Source: a virus. Taken from it: 36,657 nt of DNA. Both the position numbers and the translations under genes were made by a program. Below, piece after piece: positions 1,863 to 35,614 of this stretch; the stretch's first letter is position 1, and every line of letters starts with the position of its first letter. The stretch is from the IMG/VR virus record IMGVR_UViG_3300046472_000273, positions 1 to 36,657 of that record; one strand, written 5' to 3'. The notes below the pieces were generated by a model. That model saw only the letters and a list, made by a program, of their open reading frames with translations. It did no database searches and had not been told where the DNA came from.

Positions 1863-4430
1863 GTGATCATGTTGAACGCAGCTCTGCATTATGTCCGGCG
1901 TTTGCGCTGGCCGGTGTTTCCCTGCCGTCAAGACAATAAGCGGCCACTGACAGAGCACGGTTTCAAGGATGCGAGCCTGGATGAGGCTCAGGTGCAGGCG
2001 TGGTGGACCAAACATCCGCAAGCCATGATCGGGATTCCCACCGGCGTGCAGATCGGTGCTTGGGTGCTGGACCTTGATCCTAAGGGCATGCCGCCTGAGG
2101 AGATGCTCAAGCAGCTGATTAAATATCTAGGCCTCAGCTCGCTGCCGCCTTGTCCGATGGTGCACACGCCAAGAGGCGGGCTGCATCTTTATTGGCAATG
2201 GCAATGGTCCGAACAATTCCAGATCGGCAATCGCGGCAATTTGGTCAAAGAGATTCCGCTGATCGATGTGCGCGGTGAGGGTGGCTATGTGATCGCGCCA
2301 CCGAGTTTGCGCACTGGCACGGCTGCGCGTGAGGACGGCTCAGAGGGCAAGTCCTATCAGTGGGCAGAAGATGCAGAGCACCTGGGTGCGATCGCTGGCA
2401 GTGAGGATCAGGGATTCCTGCCGCAGCTCGCACCACCGGCGCTGATCAAGCTGGTGATGGGTGAGGAAAAGGCGCGGCCTCACGTTGCGCGCGCGGTGCC
2501 GGTGGATGAGCAGCAGGATGAGGCGGTGCGCAAATATGCGCTGACTGCCTTTGATCGCGAGCTGAGGCTCGCGCGCAGCGCGCCGGACGGGAACCGAAAC
2601 AATCAGCTGAATCTTTCTGCCTTTGCCTTGGGCCAGCTCGTGGCGGCCGATGCGCTGTCTGAAAACATGGTGCGCGCTGCGCTCAGCGACGTGGCCAGCC
2701 AATGGCCGAATTATAAACACTCGCTAGGGACCATTGAGAGCGGGCTCGCAGGCGGCAAATTGCAGCCGCGTGATCTGAGCGAGGTGCGCGCCAATGCCAG
2801 GCGCTACCGGCCGCGCAGCGCGCCGGTGCAGCCTGCAGATGATTGGCCAGGTCCGGCTGATCAGGAGGGTGCTCGAACTGCAGGTCAGGCCGCTCAGGCC
2901 GCAGCTGCCGCTGGTGAGGAGGCTGCGGCCGATCAGGACAGCGAGGCCCCACCTCCTGCGAGTGGTGGCGGTAAGAAAGGCAGGCCCTCGCAGCGCGATC
3001 GGCTGATTGAGATCGCCGCTGAAGGTGAGCTGTGGCGCGATCGCGCCGGTGATGGGTATGCGAGTGTGCGCGTGCACAATGAGCGCGGTGTGCCGCATAC
3101 CGAACACTGGAAAGTGGACTCGCCAGGCTTTGGCTATTGGTTGCGAAATGAATACTACCGGCGCACCGGCAGTGCCGCGCGCGGCGGTCACTTTGGTGAT
3201 GCGCTTGCCACCATCGAGGCGATCTCGCATCGAGGCCCCATCTATGAGATAGCGCAGCGCGTAGCGCGTGTTGATGATGTGGTGTGGCTTGCTCTCGGTG
3301 ATGAGGAATGGCGCGCAGTCAAAGTCACATCACGCAAATGGACCATTGAGCAAAATCCACCGATCAAGTTTTTACAGCAGCGCGAAATGTGCGCACTGCC
3401 GGTGCCTCAGCAAGGCGGCATGATTGAGGAGCTGACAAACCTCATGCCGAATTTGAAGGACGCAGACTTTGATTTGGTGGTGGGGTTTCTCATGGGCGCG
3501 CTCAGGCCCGATGGATCGGCATTTCCGGTGCTCGTGGTCAATGGCGAGCAAGGCTCTGCAAAATCATCACTGTGCCGAATTGTCAGAACACTGATTGATC
3601 CTTCGCTGGTGAGCCTGCATGCGCCGCCTAAGGATGAATTGGATGTGATTGAATTTGCGCGTCACCAGTGGGTGGTGGGATATGACAATCTCTCCTCGCT
3701 TGATGGCTGGCTGTCCGATGCGTTTTGCAGACTGTCGACGGGCTCAGGTTTTTCCAAGCGCAAATTGTGGACAGACACGGGCCTGATCACGTTTGAAGGT
3801 TCACGGCCGCTGCTGCTCAATGGGATTCCTGATCTCGCGACAAGGCCTGATCTGGCTGATAGAGCAATCGTGATCACGCTGCCATCAATGGCCGCGGCCG
3901 ATCGGCGCGAGATGAAAGTGATAGATGAGCAGCTGCGCAAAATGCATCCGCGTTTGCTCGGTGCGTTGCTCGATGGTGTATCGGCAGCGCTGAGAAATGA
4001 GTCTGCGACGGTGTTAGAGCGCATGCCGCGCATGGCTGATTTTGCAAAATGGGTGGCGGCCAGCAGCGCGGGCCTTGGATGGGAGCCAGGGCAATTTATG
4101 GCGAGTTATGAGAGCAACCGCGAAGGCATTTTCGATATTGCTCTTGAGAATGATCAATTCGCGGTGGCGCTCACTCGGTACATCAATGAGCGAGGCGAAT
4201 TTGTCGGCAGCGCTGCTGATCTATTGTTGAATGTGAATCAGGGCCAGGTGCTTGCCACCACCACGCAGCGCAGCTGGCCGCAAAGTCCGCAAGCTGTTGG
4301 CCATCGCTTGCGACGGATTGCGCCGTTGCTGCGTCAAGCGGGAATGTTTGTGCAGCTCGCAGATCGGCGCACTGGCCATGACAAATTCCGGCAGATTACG
4401 CTGCGCGCCGATAAAGGCTCTGAGCGATGA
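1863..4430 (+). CDS. Bifunctional DNA primase/polymerase (Prim-Pol) fused to a P-loop ATPase
   Basis: About 855 residues. The N-terminal 200 form a Prim-Pol (AEP superfamily) domain: KRPLTEHGFKDAS, the IGIPTG strand, the metal-binding DLD of WVLDLDPKG and the TPRGGLHLYW motif. A flexible Ala/Asp/Pro linker lies near residues 320-370. The C-terminal half has a Walker A (GEQGSAKSS, near residue 560) and a Walker B-like VVGYDN (near 603), followed by a conserved FEGSRPLLLNGI segment, as in phage primase-helicase proteins. It should prime and unwind DNA at the phage origin. Start is GTG 1863 or ATG 1869. It is the largest early gene. Confidence 0.88.
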   Translation: MIMLNAALHYVRRLRWPVFPCRQDNKRPLTEHGFKDASLDEAQVQAWWTKHPQAMIGIPTGVQIGAWVLDLDPKGMPPEEMLKQLIKYLGLSSLPPCPMVHTPRGGLHLYWQWQWSEQFQIGNRGNLVKEIPLIDVRGEGGYVIAPPSLRTGTAAREDGSEGKSYQWAEDAEHLGAIAGSEDQGFLPQLAPPALIKLVMGEEKARPHVARAVPVDEQQDEAVRKYALTAFDRELRLARSAPDGNRNNQLNLSAFALGQLVAADALSENMVRAALSDVASQWPNYKHSLGTIESGLAGGKLQPRDLSEVRANARRYRPRSAPVQPADDWPGPADQEGARTAGQAAQAAAAAGEEAAADQDSEAPPPASGGGKKGRPSQRDRLIEIAAEGELWRDRAGDGYASVRVHNERGVPHTEHWKVDSPGFGYWLRNEYYRRTGSAARGGHFGDALATIEAISHRGPIYEIAQRVARVDDVVWLALGDEEWRAVKVTSRKWTIEQNPPIKFLQQREMCALPVPQQGGMIEELTNLMPNLKDADFDLVVGFLMGALRPDGSAFPVLVVNGEQGSAKSSLCRIVRTLIDPSLVSLHAPPKDELDVIEFARHQWVVGYDNLSSLDGWLSDAFCRLSTGSGFSKRKLWTDTGLITFEGSRPLLLNGIPDLATRPDLADRAIVITLPSMAAADRREMKVIDEQLRKMHPRLLGALLDGVSAALRNESATVLERMPRMADFAKWVAASSAGLGWEPGQFMASYESNREGIFDIALENDQFAVALTRYINERGEFVGSAADLLLNVNQGQVLATTTQRSWPQSPQAVGHRLRRIAPLLRQAGMFVQLADRRTGHDKFRQITLRADKGSER

Positions 4431-4615
4431 AGCAGCCGGACACAAGGCGCATCACGCAGACTTTGGAGCGGGCGCGCATCGTCAAGCTCTTTCCTGTAGA
4501 CGCAGTGGTGATCGGGCTCAGCTCCGGCTGGCTTATTGTTGGTGGTTCCGATTATTGGCAAGAGCGCGCTGCGCAGTGCGCTACTGATCGCGCAAGGGAG
4601 TCGACAGATGGATGA
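4427..4615 (+). CDS. Hypothetical small protein
   Basis: A 62-residue frame whose ATG overlaps the primase stop (ATGA), so it is probably coupled to it. It contains a short hydrophobic strand (VDAVVIGLSSGWLIVGG) between basic and acidic ends. No family is recognised. Its last codons overlap the start of the DUF4326 gene. Confidence 0.65.
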   Translation: MKQPDTRRITQTLERARIVKLFPVDAVVIGLSSGWLIVGGSDYWQERAAQCATDRARESTDG

Positions 4616-4961
4616 GATTCCGCACCGCGTACAGCTCTCGCGCAAGAAAGGTTGGCGCATGCCGCCTAACACGGTGAAGGTTGATAGAAAAACCAAGTGG
4701 GGCAATCCCTGGCGCGTCGGTGAGCCACATTGCCCTAACGCAGCTGAGGCTGTGCGCATGTTTCGCAGCCGTTTCATTGGTGAGTATGCGCGGCCGATGC
4801 CACCTGAGAGTCACCTCGGATGGATTGCAGCCAACATTGAGCAGCTGCGCGGCAAGAACCTTGCCTGCTGGTGCAAGCCTCATCAGCCGTGCCACGCAGA
4901 CGTGTTGCTTGAGCTGGCGAATAGAGAGCAGCAATCGGCAACCGGCGGAGAGGAAAAATGA
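4608..4961 (+). CDS. DUF4326 domain protein
   Basis: 117 residues: VQLSRKKGWRMPPNTVKVDR, then WGNPWRVGE, and near the end LRGKNLACWCKPHQPCHADVL, the hallmark pattern of DUF4326 proteins with clustered Cys/His residues (CWC...C.H). The family is common in phages and is of unknown biochemical role. ATG 4608 is chosen because GGGAG sits at 4596-4600 and the domain starts there; the upstream in-frame extension to 4536 has no family likeness and overlaps the preceding gene. Confidence 0.85.
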   Translation: MDEIPHRVQLSRKKGWRMPPNTVKVDRKTKWGNPWRVGEPHCPNAAEAVRMFRSRFIGEYARPMPPESHLGWIAANIEQLRGKNLACWCKPHQPCHADVLLELANREQQSATGGEEK

Positions 4962-5003: not shown

Positions 5004-5162
5004 TTGGCGAATTGCAAAACGTGGAATGATGCGCAGATCGCCAAGCGTGATGCGTTTCTCGCTCTCATGCGAGATAAGCAGTATGGGTGGGATGCAACGG
5101 TGCAGGCTTGGGTTTGGTTCGATTATGGGTGGGCTGCACGCGAAACGAAAAACCCCACCTAA
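5004..5162 (+). CDS. Small Trp-rich protein, start uncertain
   Basis: The frame reads LANCKTWNDAQIAKRDAFLAL then QYGWDATVQAWVWFDYGWAARE and ends at TAA 5160-5162. It is open back to the DUF4326 stop but has no ATG; TTG 5004 is the most likely start. An ATG at 4958 with GAGAGG upstream opens a different frame (MKESKSGNRSRH) that stops after 12 codons, so a base change or frameshift may have separated start and body. The Trp-rich composition looks like real coding sequence. Function unknown. Confidence 0.45.
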   Translation: MANCKTWNDAQIAKRDAFLALMRDKQYGWDATVQAWVWFDYGWAARETKNPT

Positions 5163-5171
5163 TCGGTGGGG
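5148..5171 (-). terminator. Intrinsic terminator for the 5200-5947 leftward operon
   Basis: CCCCACC (5153-5159) pairs with GGTGGGG (5165-5171) over a five-base loop. Read on the minus strand the hairpin is followed by five T (complement of 5148-5152), the intrinsic terminator pattern. On the plus strand no T tract follows, so it works mainly leftward, and it overlaps the 3' end of the small rightward gene. Confidence 0.75.
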
Positions 5172-5199
5172 CTCACGCGCGTTGTGATCCTTGCGGTGA

Positions 5200-5499
5200 T
5201 TAGGCCGCGTGCACGCTGCCTGCCGCCATCGAGCTGCTCACGATCTTGAGCGCTGCATCAACCGAGAGGCCTAATTCTGCGTTGAGATCGTCGCAATGCG
5301 TGGACATTTCCGGCCAGGTGTCCGCGTTGCACCAGCTGATGGGCACCGCGATATAACCCGGTTCATTGGCGATCGCTATTCCAAGGATGATCTTGTGGTG
5401 CTCGCTTGAGATCGCAGGCACAAACGCAGCGAGCTTGCCGCTGATCGCCTCATCAATGCCTGCCTCAAAGCGGCCTTCCTTCGTGAGCGGTTTTAGCAT
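5200..5499 (-). CDS. Hypothetical protein, last gene of leftward accessory operon
   Basis: 99 residues, MLKPLTKEGRFEAGIDEAIS... with a hydrophobic middle (HHKIILGIAIANEPGYIAVPI). No family recognised and no membrane segment of sufficient length. Its start overlaps the end of the preceding 55-residue gene and an intrinsic terminator follows 28 bases after the stop, so it closes a compact three-gene leftward unit. Confidence 0.7.
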   Translation of the reverse strand: MLKPLTKEGRFEAGIDEAISGKLAAFVPAISSEHHKIILGIAIANEPGYIAVPISWCNADTWPEMSTHCDDLNAELGLSVDAALKIVSSSMAAGSVHAA

Positions 5500-5660
5500 G
5501 TTCGCACCTTTCCTTTGTCAGCTGCCATTAGTTTGACCAAGGCGCGCTCTAGCGCCTTGGCCTCTTTCTCGGTGATAGTTTCACCCCACTCGCCTGCGAG
5601 CAAGAAACCGGCTGCCGTGCGTAGCGCGTCACGCTCAAGCTGCGTGAGCCGCAATCTCAT
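5493..5660 (-). CDS. Hypothetical 55-residue protein, middle gene of leftward accessory operon
   Basis: ATG at 5660-5658 overlaps the stop of the 96-residue gene (ATGA) and the frame (MRLRLTQLERDALRTAAGFL..., ITEKEAKALERALVKL) ends at 5493, inside the next gene's start. It is helix-rich and highly charged. Overlaps on both sides and codon character support it as a real gene although it is short. No family recognised. Confidence 0.65.
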   Translation of the reverse strand: MRLRLTQLERDALRTAAGFLLAGEWGETITEKEAKALERALVKLMAADKGKVRTC

Positions 5661-5947
5661 GACGCCATCCCCATCACCGGCGCTGTCTCGCTGAGCGCGT
5701 CCAGCGCAGCCTGCGCGGCCTCATAGCGATAGCAATTGCGGATAGTCACGCTGCTGCGCATGCGGGTGCCGGTGCTGGTGTAGTAGGTGGCAATCACATG
5801 CCAGGTGCGCCGGGTGCTGCTGCGCGGGCCTTCGTGAGCGGCTGAAAATTGGACGCATTGGCGCACGCCTGCGATCGTAAACCACGCGGCAGCGCTGCTC
5901 ATTCCTCTGCCGAGGGCGTCAAACTTGAGAGTCTTGAGATCATCCAT
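5657..5947 (-). CDS. Hypothetical protein, first gene of leftward accessory operon
   Basis: 96 residues (MDDLKTLKFDALGRGMSSAA... TWHVIATYYTSTGTRMRSSV...). AAAGGA upstream of the ATG is a good ribosome site. It is the first gene behind a strong promoter (5993-6021, minus strand) whose spacer carries a palindromic operator. No recognised domain. The predicted beta-rich middle with many Ser/Thr gives no functional clue. Confidence 0.7.
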   Translation of the reverse strand: MDDLKTLKFDALGRGMSSAAAWFTIAGVRQCVQFSAAHEGPRSSTRRTWHVIATYYTSTGTRMRSSVTIRNCYRYEAAQAALDALSETAPVMGMAS

Positions 5948-5992
5948 TTTGGTGTCCTTTCGTAGGACTTGGCCGTGATCGGATCAGAGGTT

Positions 5993-6021
5993 TATATATG
6001 CCAGCTGGCATACATGGTCAA
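5993..6021 (-). promoter_or_regulatory. Leftward sigma-70 promoter with 16-bp palindromic operator in the spacer
   Basis: On the minus strand TTGACC (6021-6016) and TATATA (5998-5993) are separated by exactly 17 bp, a near-ideal sigma-70 promoter. A perfect palindrome, TATGCCAGCTGGCATA (5997-6012), fills the spacer and touches the -10, so a bound repressor would block polymerase. It drives the 5200-5947 operon. Confidence 0.75.
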
Positions 6022-6068
6022 GCCGTTTTCCATGTCCTTTTTTTCATGCAGGGACATATAGAGAGTGC

Positions 6069-6097
6069 TTGACGGTATATGCCACCTGGCATAGTTT
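6069..6097 (+). promoter_or_regulatory. Rightward promoter with second copy of the 16-bp operator
   Basis: TTGACG (6069-6074) is followed three bases later by TATGCCACCTGGCATA (6078-6093), one base off a perfect palindrome and nearly identical to the copy at 5997-6012. The same geometry as the leftward promoter puts a weak -10 (TAGTTT) at 6092-6097. Its orientation fits the 6149-6829 genes. The two copies imply one regulator controlling both directions. Confidence 0.65.
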
Positions 6098-6148
6098 CAG
6101 TTTCAGTCAGAGCCAGTCACGGCTCGCCTTCGGAAAGGGACCAAGCAA

Positions 6149-6364
6149 ATGAGCAAGTTTGAAGCAGGCCGGACCTACTGGACACGCAGCGTCTGTGATC
6201 ACGAGTGCATCTATTCGCTCACGGTGGCCACGCGCACTGCGAAAACCATCACCACCACCGAGGGCAAGCGGCTGCGTGTTGCGATCTGGCATGATATTGA
6301 GCAGGTCAAGCCGTTTGGTTCTTACAGCATGGCGGCAATCATCAGCGCAGATCGCGTGCGCTGA
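6149..6364 (+). CDS. Hypothetical small phage protein
   Basis: 71 residues: FEAGRTYWTRSVCDHECIYS, then TVATRTAKTITTTEGKRLRV and a C-terminal PFGSYSMAAIISA. I recognise this pattern (tyrosine-rich start, CDH/C motif, PFG.YSMAP-like end) as a small protein family widespread in phages and plasmids, with no known function. AAGGGA lies upstream of ATG 6149. It is the first gene after the operator-controlled rightward promoter. Confidence 0.75.
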   Translation: MSKFEAGRTYWTRSVCDHECIYSLTVATRTAKTITTTEGKRLRVAIWHDIEQVKPFGSYSMAAIISADRVR

Positions 6365-6395
6365 TCTCACGGCCGGGAAAGAGGAGTTGGGTTCA

Positions 6396-6593
6396 TTGTT
6401 TACCATCACACTGGCAGAGCGTTTTGAAATGGCTTTCGATCGCGCGCAGAGCGCGGTGACTTTGGATGGCGTCACGCTTGTGCGTGAGTTTGTCGGTGCG
6501 TCGCAATTCGTGACGCGGCCGGGTGTGCTGCGCATCGAGGTGCAGGCCTATCTCATTGACGCGATCAGCGACGCGCTCAAGGTGCAATCATGA
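6396..6593 (+). CDS. Hypothetical protein with TTG start
   Basis: 65 residues (FTITLAERFEMAFDRAQSAV..., VLRIEVQAYLIDAISDALKV). TTG 6396 is chosen because GAGGAG (6381-6386) lies nine bases upstream; there is no ATG near the domain start. The frame is open much further upstream, but that part overlaps the 6149-6364 gene and looks like shadow sequence. The stop overlaps the next ATG (ATGA). No family recognised. Confidence 0.6.
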   Translation: MFTITLAERFEMAFDRAQSAVTLDGVTLVREFVGASQFVTRPGVLRIEVQAYLIDAISDALKVQS

Positions 6594-6829
6594 AACGGGG
6601 CGAGAGAATGACGGGTGAGCAGCTCAAGGCGATTCGCGAGAAGCTAGGCCTCACCCTTTGGGATTGGGGCCAGGTGCTTGGCTACACTGGTAACCGCAAC
6701 ACGGTGCAGGTGCTGCTGCGGCGCTATGAGACGGGCGAGCGTACACCTCTGCCGCCTTTGCTTGAGCGCACCGCGCTGATGTTCGGGCGGTATGGGATTC
6801 CGCGTGAGTATGATCTGCCGCAGAGCTGA
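6590..6829 (+). CDS. XRE-like helix-turn-helix protein
   Basis: 79 residues with an HTH domain at about residues 8-60: MTGEQLKAIREKLGLTLWDW, then a VLLRRYETGERTPLPPLLER segment typical of XRE proteins. Start could also be ATG 6608, which places the domain at the N-terminus. It is the last gene of the operator-controlled rightward unit and is followed by a strong terminator. It is the best candidate in this island for the protein binding the TATGCC...GGCATA operators, but this is inference from position. Confidence 0.75.
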   Translation: MKRGERMTGEQLKAIREKLGLTLWDWGQVLGYTGNRNTVQVLLRRYETGERTPLPPLLERTALMFGRYGIPREYDLPQS

Positions 6830-6857
6830 GCGTGCGGGAGTTTTGGTGCGCCTAGGA

Positions 6858-6886
6858 AACCTCACCTGAGCCGGTGAGGTTTTTTG
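6858..6886 (+). terminator. Intrinsic terminator
   Basis: AACCTCACC (6858-6866) pairs perfectly with GGTGAGGTT (6873-6881) over a six-base loop, followed by a T run to 6885. It separates the XRE gene from the toxin-antitoxin pair, which must therefore have its own promoter. Confidence 0.85.
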
Positions 6887-6901
6887 TTGGTGTAATATAG
6901 C

Positions 6902-6930
6902 TTGACTGTGCGTATCCAAACGGATACAAC
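6902..6930 (+). promoter_or_regulatory. Promoter and operator of the toxin-antitoxin pair
   Basis: TTGACT (6902-6907) and TACAAC (6925-6930) are 17 bp apart. The inverted repeat GTATCC-AAAC-GGATAC (6912-6927) sits between them and overlaps the -10. This is the expected place for autoregulation by an antitoxin. The toxin ATG is at 6938, so the leader is very short. Confidence 0.7.
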
Positions 6931-6937
6931 CCTTTCC

Positions 6938-7228
6938 ATGAACTCGATTGTGCAGACAGAAGAATTTAAGGCCTGGCTTTTGGGCGTGACTGATCTCAAG
7001 GCGCGCGCGGCGATCTTGGTGCGCATTGCGCGGGCCGCAAGTGGAAATTTTGGCGATTGCAGTTCTGTTGGCGCGGGCGTGTTTGAAATGAGAATCGATG
7101 TGGGCGCGGGCTATCGCGTCTATTACGTCCGGCGCGGCAGGACGGTTTATCTGCTCTTGTGCGGCGGATCAAAGAAAACGCAGGCGAAGGACATTGCTCG
7201 CGCTAAGGCGCTGGCAGAAGCAACTTGA
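6938..7228 (+). CDS. RelE/ParE-superfamily toxin (HigB-like, COG3657 type)
   Basis: 96 residues: TEEFKAWLLGVTDLKARAAI, a GNFGDCSSVGAGVFEMRIDV segment and GYRVYYVRRGRTVYLLLCGG, the standard pattern of the addiction-module killer protein family. These are usually ribosome-dependent mRNA interferases, neutralised by the antitoxin. ATG 6938 is chosen over the TTG at 6902, which lies inside the promoter. Toxin-first gene order with the antitoxin 13 bases downstream is typical of HigBA-type systems. Confidence 0.88.
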   Translation: MNSIVQTEEFKAWLLGVTDLKARAAILVRIARAASGNFGDCSSVGAGVFEMRIDVGAGYRVYYVRRGRTVYLLLCGGSKKTQAKDIARAKALAEAT

Positions 7229-7241
7229 GGATTAAGGGCAG

Positions 7242-7541
7242 ATGACAAAAGCAGTAAAGCGCAAGGTTAAAATTGTTCCGTTTGATGCTTCGGAATTTCT
7301 CGATAGCAGCGAAGCGATCGCGGCCTATCTCGATGCAGCGATGCGCGAGTCTGATCCTGATGTGTTTGTGCGCGCACTCGGTGATGTGGTGCGCGCCAAG
7401 GGGGTTGCGGCCATTGCGACTCAAGCTGGCATTGGACGTGAGAGTCTTTACAAGACAATCGCGCCAGGTTCAGCGCCGCGTTATGACACGGTGTGGAAGC
7501 TGCTAGACGCGATGGGCGTCCGGTTGCATGTGGGCGCGTGA
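7242..7541 (+). CDS. Addiction-module antitoxin (HigA-like, COG3636 type)
   Basis: 99 residues: FDASEFLDSSEAIAAYLDAA in the N-terminal part, then a helix-turn-helix GVAAIATQAGIGRESLYKTI and the C-terminal DTVWKLLDAMGVRLHV. This is the partner family of the preceding toxin. It should bind the toxin and repress the pair through the GTATCC/GGATAC operator. In a temperate phage such a pair can stabilise the lysogen or exclude competitors; neither is shown here. Confidence 0.88.
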   Translation: MTKAVKRKVKIVPFDASEFLDSSEAIAAYLDAAMRESDPDVFVRALGDVVRAKGVAAIATQAGIGRESLYKTIAPGSAPRYDTVWKLLDAMGVRLHVGA

Positions 7542-7665: not shown

Positions 7666-7920
7666 GGCCGCATGTGCGGGTGCACTCGCGCTCATGCGGC
7701 CAGCTGCGGCCAATCGCGGCCAATACCGGAAATGCAGGCAAGGCCGCGCGCAGAGCCTTGATCTGGCTGAGCTTTGTTGAGGTTGCGGCTTACGCGGCTC
7801 TTGTTTTGCCTGATCTCTCATCCCCACTAATGAAAAAGAAAGAGAACGAAGTAAGGCAGGCCGCATGCATTATGGGGTGCAACAATAGGAAGGGCCGCAA
7901 AATCAGGCCGCATGGCCGCA
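7666..7920. repeat. Array of GGCCGCA/TGCGGCC elements in a 450-bp non-coding stretch
   Basis: The stretch 7542-7996 has no convincing gene; the frames crossing it have no family likeness and shadow-like composition. It holds repeated seven-base elements: GCGGCCA at 7696, 7706 and 7716 (exactly 10 bp apart) and the opposite orientation GGCCGCA at 7666, 7859, 7893, 7906 and 7914, plus a near copy at 7742. The spacing of the first three places them on one face of the helix. The array lies between the TA pair and the packaging region and could be a terminase- or regulator-binding site, or part of an origin. Confidence 0.5.
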
Positions 7921-7996
7921 CGCGAAAAACGCTTGCAGGTGCGCTGCGAATGTTTCCGTAAGTGGATGTGACGCTTGTTGAAACTGCTGGAAGGCG

Positions 7997-30554: not shown

Positions 30555-31832
30555 TCAAGCACTCTGCTTTTTCGAGTCGACAGGTCCGCTGGCCACCGGC
30601 TTCTCAAAGAGATCGTTAATCACGCTGCGCCGGTGCGATTCAACGTCCAGGGTGTAGCCAAGCACCGATCGCGAATCGATCCACCCACCCTGAGCCATGG
30701 CGAGCTTGAGATTGCCTGAGCCGTTCATGATGCGAGTGGCGAGCATGTGCCTGAACCAATGCTGTGTGACTTTGCGCAACAGGCTGGCCTCGCCCCATGC
30801 GCGGTGAGCACCGGCGCGATCGCCGCGCGCGCGCAGCTCAGCCGCTTCACGCCATTTGGCTTTCACGGCTCTGCGCTTGGCACCATTGAACGCGCTGCGA
30901 TTGTTATTGCTGCCTTTGATTGAGTAGGGCTCGCGCGCATCGGTCAAAAAGAACGGGGCCTCTCGCTTGTGCAGATCGCCGCGCCACTCGGCATATTCGC
31001 GCATTAGCTCAGCTGCCTCAGGCGGTAGCGTCGCGGTGACTTCCTCACCGTTCTTGGTTCCCCAATAGCGAATTTGCTCGCGGCCTTCCGCCAAGATCAC
31101 ATCACAGACGCGCGCGCCGCGCAGAATTGAGGACACGCGCGCGCCGGTGGCCCACTCAGCTGCGAGCTGGCCTTTGAGGTGCGGTGCTGCGTGCGAGATC
31201 AAGAACCTGATCAGCTCTGAGGACAGCTCAGTCACTCTGCGCTTGGCGCGGCGATTGGGGCTGCGCACCTTATTGTCTCGCTCAAAGATCGGCAGCTTGT
31301 CGCGGGTGATCCATTCGCGCGGTGGCTCACTGCACCAGCGAAGAAACGCCACCACCGCGTTGAGGTAGCGCTCGCGCGTTGCGCTCTTGTTTCCGTCATG
31401 GCGCTGATCAATCCAGCTTGTCCATTCATCCTGCGTGATGCTCTTGAGCGTGCGGCCTTGAAAGCGCTCGCCCAATTCTTTCAGCACGCTGACTGTCATT
31501 TGTCCGAGGACTCGCTCGCGTGGCCTTTTGAGATATGCAAGCGCAGCTTGGGCGATTTCCTCACTCGTTTTGATTCCGTGGATGGTTTCTTGCTGGAATT
31601 GGAGCGTGAGCTTGTTGAGGATGGCTTGGGCGTTTGTTCTGTTGGCGGGGATGCCGGAAAGGCCCGTAGATTGTCTAATGCGTCGCGAGACTCTTTCGCC
31701 TTCTGCGGTGACTGCGCTGCAGGTTCCAACAATGGTGAACGTGCCTTTGCGGATGGTGAGGCATAATCCTGCCGCTCGTTTGCTGCGGCGATTATTGCTG
31801 CTCTCAGCTTTTGGAATCCGGCCTCTGTCCAT
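30555..31832 (-). CDS. int: Tyrosine recombinase (phage integrase)
   Basis: 425 residues. N-terminal arm-binding region (LTIRKGTFTIVGTCS, VSRRIRQSTGLSGI), a core-binding SAM-like domain near residues 105-185, and the catalytic domain with Arg232 (TGARVSSIL), the beta-strand Lys region (IRYWGTKNGEEV), His358 and Arg361 (HWFRHMLATR), Trp384 and the nucleophile Tyr393 (RSVLGYTLDV). All catalytic residues are present. It should recombine the tRNA-Thr core at 30014-30063. Its first 112 codons overlap the HTH gene upstream in another frame. Confidence 0.93.
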   Translation of the reverse strand: MDRGRIPKAESSNNRRSKRAAGLCLTIRKGTFTIVGTCSAVTAEGERVSRRIRQSTGLSGIPANRTNAQAILNKLTLQFQQETIHGIKTSEEIAQAALAYLKRPRERVLGQMTVSVLKELGERFQGRTLKSITQDEWTSWIDQRHDGNKSATRERYLNAVVAFLRWCSEPPREWITRDKLPIFERDNKVRSPNRRAKRRVTELSSELIRFLISHAAPHLKGQLAAEWATGARVSSILRGARVCDVILAEGREQIRYWGTKNGEEVTATLPPEAAELMREYAEWRGDLHKREAPFFLTDAREPYSIKGSNNNRSAFNGAKRRAVKAKWREAAELRARGDRAGAHRAWGEASLLRKVTQHWFRHMLATRIMNGSGNLKLAMAQGGWIDSRSVLGYTLDVESHRRSVINDLFEKPVASGPVDSKKQSA

Positions 31833-34690: not shown

Positions 34691-35614
34691 TCAGCTGAGA
34701 AGTGAAACCGGCGCGCGCTGTGGCATTGCATCATGCGTGACGCCATCGAGGCTGCGTCCAGCGGCAGGCTTGCCCATGCGCACAAAGGTGTGGCCTGAGG
34801 AATGGTGCGAAAAGAACCGTTTGCCTGCCCACTCGGCTGCCTCCTCATAATTGAGGTGGTCCGGTGCCGGTGCCCAATCGCCCCATTGCTTGAAGAAAAA
34901 CGGCACACCTGCTGCCGCGCATTGATCGCGCAACGATCGGGGCCAGTAGGGATGCATCACGCGCGCGCCGGTGCCGCTCTCGCCACCAGCAATCACCCAA
35001 TCGAGGCGTGCAGTTTGAAGTGTGCCGTGTGGGTGATTCTCCTCAATGCCGGTGAGCGCATTGATGTGATCGCAGCCTTTGACAGTGAGCCGCGTGAGAT
35101 CAATAGGGCCTAGCAATGGTTCTGCTGAGACAAAGCGCATCACGGCCGGTGCCTTGAGCAAGAGAGGCACGCGCTCCTCAGCACGCAGCTGATCCTCAAT
35201 CGAAACGCCTAGCCAGACGTTTGGCAGGATTGCGATGTTGCTCAGCACCTCAAGCATGCGCGCCGGGCGTTTGGTGAGAATCTGAAAGATGTGCTGCTGG
35301 TGTTGGCTCATGACAGCGAACACCTGCACAATCCACTCGGCAGGGATGTTCTCGTGAAAGAGATCGCCCATCGAGTCGACAAACACATGACGGGGCTTGC
35401 GCCAGGTCGCGGGTTCTAGCAGCCGATCGGCAATCAGCTTCACCTCGCCATTCCAGACGGCATTACCTTTGTGCAGCTCTGTCAGGCCTTTGTAGTTGCG
35501 GCCGATGCGGTGCGCCCATCGCATGGCGTAACAATTCGTGCAGCCAGGTGAGAGCACGCTGCAGCCAATGATCGGATTCCAAGTCTCATCTGTCCATTCA
35601 ATGCCGGTGCTCAT
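34691..35614 (-). CDS. DUF5131 (phage Gp37/Gp68) protein
   Basis: 307 residues: IEWTDETWNPIIGCSVLSPG CTNCYA places Cys18, Cys25 and Cys28 as C-x6-C-x2-C, followed by VFVDSMGDLFHENIP, FQILTKRPARM, VWLGVSIED, RFVSAEPLLGPIDL, VIAGGESGTGARVMHPYWPR and FFFKQWGDW, all hallmark motifs. The family is common in phages and has a TIM-barrel-like, radical-SAM-related look with a Cys triad; its substrate is unknown. It overlaps the neighbouring gene by four bases. Confidence 0.9.
   Translation of the reverse strand: MSTGIEWTDETWNPIIGCSVLSPGCTNCYAMRWAHRIGRNYKGLTELHKGNAVWNGEVKLIADRLLEPATWRKPRHVFVDSMGDLFHENIPAEWIVQVFAVMSQHQQHIFQILTKRPARMLEVLSNIAILPNVWLGVSIEDQLRAEERVPLLLKAPAVMRFVSAEPLLGPIDLTRLTVKGCDHINALTGIEENHPHGTLQTARLDWVIAGGESGTGARVMHPYWPRSLRDQCAAAGVPFFFKQWGDWAPAPDHLNYEEAAEWAGKRFFSHHSSGHTFVRMGKPAAGRSLDGVTHDAMPQRAPVSLLS

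Follow-up and report, generated by a model that had tools for sequence, protein, structure and literature searches.

Cassette organisation and the twin operators

The window analysed here, the whole stretch of 36,657 nucleotides of viral DNA, carries between its replication genes (SSB, primase-polymerase) and terminase a cassette of small genes arranged as two divergent operons of three genes each (Table 1). The three leftward genes overlap one another and clear ribosome sites precede the first and third of them, while in the rightward operon the second and third genes share 4 nt. With its own promoters, terminators on both sides and a position apart from the early and late operons, the cassette is organised as expected of an accessory, moron-like insertion bounded by its own terminators. 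Family searches matched the leftward proteins to no known function, no homologues of the 5657-5947 and 6590-6829 proteins were found in viral contigs, and a search for DNA relatives of 5100-6950 in phages returned none. No primase relatives were found in viral contigs, and the cassette genes were absent by tblastn from the terminase relatives.

Table 1. Features of the divergent cassette, with positions in the window.
Feature	Position	Strand	Description
Leftward-operon intrinsic terminator	5150-5174	-	-21 kcal/mol, z -4.3
Leftward gene 3	5200-5499	-	99 aa, PHROG 16631 (unknown function)
Leftward gene 2	5493-5660	-	55 aa; 4-nt overlap with gene 1
Leftward gene 1	5657-5947	-	96 aa, no family found; AAAGGA Shine-Dalgarno
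Leftward promoter	5993-6021	-	TTGACC-17-TATATA, extended -35 gCTTGAC
O-left operator (predicted)	5997-6012		Perfect 16-bp palindrome TATGCCAGCTGGCATA, arms 8+8; in leftward promoter
Rightward promoter	6069-6097	+	TTGACG-17-TAGTTT, weak -10; -35 reads gCTTGAC
O-right operator (predicted)	6078-6093		TATGCCACCTGGCATA, 7-2-7 inverted repeat; in rightward promoter
Rightward gene 1	6149-6364	+	71 aa, predicted small all-beta protein
Rightward gene 2	6396-6593	+	65 aa, TTG start, GAGGAG upstream, no family found
Rightward gene 3	6590-6829	+	79 aa, XRE-type HTH, proposed repressor of both promoters
Rightward-operon intrinsic terminator	6857-6882	+	-19.1 kcal/mol, z -3.9

The operons are read from back-to-back promoters, and the 17-bp spacer of each promoter is taken up by its palindrome, placed in mirror orientation. 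The two near-identical 16-bp palindromes were found where the preliminary description had located them; they differ by a single base, their starts lie 81 bp apart, and at both promoters 3 bases separate the TTGAC(C/G) hexamer from the palindrome, the terminal TA of which is also the opening TA of the -10 hexamer. Like operators overlap both divergent promoters, and this anatomy supports the earlier proposal of a divergent control region in which one regulator serves both directions. As RNA hairpins or terminators the palindromes fold weakly (z -1.64), and such a role was rejected. Outside the operator and the gCTTGAC the flanks of the two promoters do not match, and thus the promoters are not a plain duplication.

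The Sinorhizobium meliloti sigma-70 consensus is CTTGAC-N17-CTATAT (PMC2573895). Both -35 elements, reading gCTTGAC, agree with it, and hand counts give 11 of 12 matching positions for the leftward promoter and 9 of 12 for the rightward, so that the leftward is, on paper, the stronger of the two, in line with the earlier reading of a weak rightward -10. Transcription would be expected to start at about 5986 on the leftward side and about 6104 on the rightward. Neither divergent promoter was reported by a generic E. coli-type promoter scan, since both fail its cut-offs, which were 9 of 12 matches together with a T as the final -10 base.

Several other features of the window were recorded alongside the cassette. 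Positions 6902-7541 hold a type II toxin-antitoxin pair, with a RelE/ParE-type toxin (TIGR02683) and its antidote (TIGR02684); the spacer of its promoter (6902-6930) contains an operator-like palindrome, GTATCCAAACGGATAC, and the toxin mRNA may be leaderless, as the ATG at 6938 lies at about the expected transcription start. A strong hairpin with 13-bp arms (1108-1137, -35 kcal/mol) lies between the early genes and SSB. In the leftward block, 34691-35614 (minus strand) encodes a PHROG 2045 protein with strong matches to the PADLOC candidate-defence families PDC-M41B and PDC-M30B. The small protein of 1605-1859 resembles the N-terminus of GcrA (Pfam 3.9e-5, just below the cut-off), a cell-cycle regulator of alphaproteobacteria, and offers a hint of the host.

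Chance expectation and distribution of the operator

We compared the palindromes with their chance expectation. A single loose match is expected 1.24 times in the window and is unremarkable alone, whereas simulation of 300 windows with matched dinucleotide composition gave a single case of two like palindromes no more than 300 bp apart (arms of at least 7, at most 2 mismatches), even before the mirrored placement in promoters was required. No third copy of TATGCCANNTGGCATA with up to 3 mismatches is present in the 36.7-kb window besides the two sites. Each of the three TTGAC promoters in the window (5993-6021, 6069-6097 and 6902-6930) has a palindrome in its spacer, with arms of at least 6; at the comparison phage loci the proportion of TTGAC promoter-like sites was 29 of 601 (4.8%) at this arm length and 1.2% with arms of at least 7. 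Chance is a poor explanation, and the improbable part is that there are two exact matches, paired and set in promoters. It is therefore very improbable that we are dealing with accidental palindromes, or with a copied promoter segment that has no regulatory role: low-stringency matches to the palindrome are not rare, but two exact copies occupy mirrored promoter positions, and the unlike flanks speak against a copied segment.

The combined promoter-plus-operator pattern, TTGACNNNNTATGCCANNTGGCATA, gave 2 matches in 257 Gb from 85,000 bacterial and archaeal genomes, for a chance expectation of about 1.9 (19 fixed bases, two strands), and 0 matches in viral contigs, a collection that may lack near relatives of the record. 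The operator sequence is phage-specific, and this distribution favours a phage-encoded binder. A scan of viruses with the bare palindrome returned, among the matches listed, unrelated contexts with few near a -35-like hexamer, and hence no family was obtained. A host regulon was rejected, the genome scan being at chance level. Palindromes of this type are compatible with several host regulator families, and a host transcription factor on these sites would tie the cassette to host physiology, but with the pattern at chance frequency across the 85,000 genomes we regard such a factor as improbable.

We also looked for related arrangements around relatives of the first rightward gene, 6149-6364, which occur in several dozen phage contigs. 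The model of this protein is confident (pLDDT 93); its fold search gave no significant match in the PDB and only uncharacterised phage proteins in BFVD. The gene order of the window recurs in one contig (L208), with the 6149 homologue at 1747-1965, a small gene at 1968-2201 and an XRE gene at 2173-2373; in another (L004) the homologue comes first and the XRE gene last (7700-7945), opposite a divergent leftward operon, and in Butyrivibrio phage Arian (L182) the 6149 relative is followed, 0.3 kb further downstream, by a gene annotated as Cro/CI-type. The XRE proteins of L208 and L004 could not be confidently aligned to the 6590-6829 protein and are too divergent for binding-site prediction, and the palindromes in the promoters of both loci are different and weaker. 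The leftward operon of L004 also encodes a NusG/KOW-type protein (5128-5685, minus strand), a possible phage antiterminator.

Repeated palindromes or promoters were seen at four further loci. In L003, TTACGCGCGTAA occurs three times (4127, 4512 and 4920; region 4120-4950), in successive TTGAC/TTGCG promoters of separate rightward units, one of which heads the operon holding the 6149 relative. GTCACGTGAC occurs twice in L212, and in L210 (3952, 6571) and L185 (3940, 6254) whole promoters with their flanking motif are repeated upstream of separate small-gene units. Operators in or near the 6149-type promoter thus recur, with a sequence particular to each phage. In most of the relatives (e.g. L186-L207) no such operator arrangement was seen, and so it is not constant within the family.

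The candidate regulator and alternative explanations

Within the cassette, 6590-6829 alone is an HTH gene, and it lies last in the rightward operon, followed by the terminator. Its product matches PHROG 14076 (1.8e-7) and is recognised weakly as an HTH protein, with 21.5 bits against Pfam HTH_31 (cut-off 27) and a sub-threshold match to an MqsA-type HTH (1.8e-4). Modelled from its sequence alone, the protein forms the expected helices with moderate confidence (pLDDT 68); the fold search gave nothing significant, the nearest structures including Aca2 (E 0.56), P22 c2, HigA and C.Csp231I, and the sequence search of the PDB found no HTH chain of note. No sequence homologue with a known operator was detected, and consequently site and protein cannot be linked by comparison. 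Among the binders put forward by the preliminary description, this XRE protein stands, on anatomy, as the first candidate; the products of 5200-5947, which had been named beside it, do not resemble regulators, no HTH family having been found in them.

Since a phage-encoded binder is favoured and the cassette holds a single HTH gene, autoregulation by the 6590-6829 protein is favoured too, and we consider it fairly likely that this protein occupies the two operators and shuts down the two promoters. The sites, the promoter geometry, the operons with their terminators, the HTH family, the phage-specific operator and the recurring operon plan are observed; we infer that it is the binding protein, that it acts by repression rather than activation, and that events follow the order given below. 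The protein, as a dimer, would sit on each 16-bp operator (TATGCCASSTGGCATA) and exclude RNA polymerase, because the operator fills the spacer between -35 and -10 and the start of the -10. Through O-right the rightward operon would shut itself off, by negative autoregulation, and through O-left the stronger leftward operon would be repressed. At infection both operons would fire, the leftward more, and would then settle at a low level as the repressor builds up.

A different phage regulator, be it the XRE protein of 656-862 or a prophage repressor from another locus, may own the operators, a possibility that we hold as an appreciable minority view, in which the cassette would be silenced or released with the lytic programme through outlying, stoperator-like operators. 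The repetition of one palindrome or promoter across the promoters of the 6149-related phages L003, L212, L185 and L210 could indeed mean a phage-wide repressor, but the window has no third TATGCCANNTGGCATA copy within 3 mismatches and the palindrome of the 434-655 region differs from the twin operators. The 434-655 region is a classical early control region, ahead of the XRE gene 656-862, the first gene of the rightward block that also holds SSB and primase. If the ends of the record join, this region is the boundary between the replication operon and the integrase block. Upstream of this XRE gene, at 517-546, lies a 30-bp imperfect palindrome, TTGCGCTTTGTACAATTGTGTAAAGCGCAA, unlike the twin operators, and it probably serves as an operator in main early control.

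The preliminary description had further suggested that the cassette could be a second genetic switch, or even the main immunity switch. We did not find this borne out, as neither operon has an integrase or a CI-like repressor opposed to a Cro; the integrase gene of the phage is at 30555-31832, in the leftward block. A lysis/lysogeny switch, whether secondary or main, would account for divergent promoters with shared operators in a temperate phage (an integrase is present) in which none of the proteins scanned was a long CI of the classical type, carrying a peptidase domain. Nevertheless, each promoter has a single operator, each operon has its own terminator, the leftward operon lacks an opposing repressor, and the junction between replication operon and integrase block (if the ends join) is elsewhere, so that we judge a switch unlikely.

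If autoregulation by the 6590-6829 protein is correct, the locus would be a clean and minimal example of an autoregulated divergent promoter, from an apparently alphaproteobacterial phage. Its signature, a spacer operator combined with an HTH gene placed last, would point to the small genes as candidates for host takeover or anti-defence. The 6149 family, followed by an XRE gene in a few of its several dozen contigs, is the most useful lead.

Comparison with known regulatory systems

In acr-aca operons, autorepressors of the families Aca1-Aca10 are encoded downstream and one or two inverted repeats lie in the core promoter (PMC9410906, PMC8434428). The rightward operon of the cassette has the same plan, with small unknown proteins first, the HTH gene 6590-6829 last before the terminator at 6857-6882, an inverted repeat in the core promoter and predicted autorepression. 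Some acr-aca cases also have two like repeats; in the cassette, by contrast, the second operator belongs to another promoter, which reads in the opposite direction. The 6590-6829 protein matched no known Aca family in NCBIfam, and a phmmer search of the PDB (E<=1) gave no Aca chain. For the remaining five proteins of the cassette no family was matched in NCBIfam or PADLOC, and anti-CRISPRs are often unrecognisable by sequence. The cassette resembles acr-aca operons in architecture, and we do not claim membership. A bidirectional anti-defence cassette, in which an Aca-like autorepressor, encoded last in the rightward operon, would act through the twin operators to limit two divergent operons whose unrecognised products, the 6149-type protein among them, serve in host takeover or against CRISPR, is a speculative extension that we regard as conceivable but not likely.

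Pairs of divergent, autoregulated promoters such as that proposed here are a classical arrangement, and as a switch the cassette is ordinary. In tetR/tetA-type regions, back-to-back promoters with paired overlapping operators are controlled in both directions by one autorepressor. The cassette shares with them the divergent promoters, the paired operators and a single proposed regulator, but here the regulator is last rather than first in its operon, no TetR-family protein is encoded and the operators lie 81 bp apart. The lambdoid CI/Cro switch combines divergent promoters and core-promoter operators with XRE-type proteins acting as an opposing repressor pair. The divergent promoters with core-promoter operators and the XRE-type protein are found here as well, whereas each promoter has one operator, the HTH gene is in the rightward operon only, without opposing repressors, and the locus is not beside the integration and replication decision genes. 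Finally, mycobacteriophage stoperators are described (PMC9283540, PMC6550527) as asymmetric and numerous and as also stopping elongation. The likeness lies in identical repressor sites at several transcription units of one phage, and the difference is that the cassette has two symmetric sites, both placed inside promoters.
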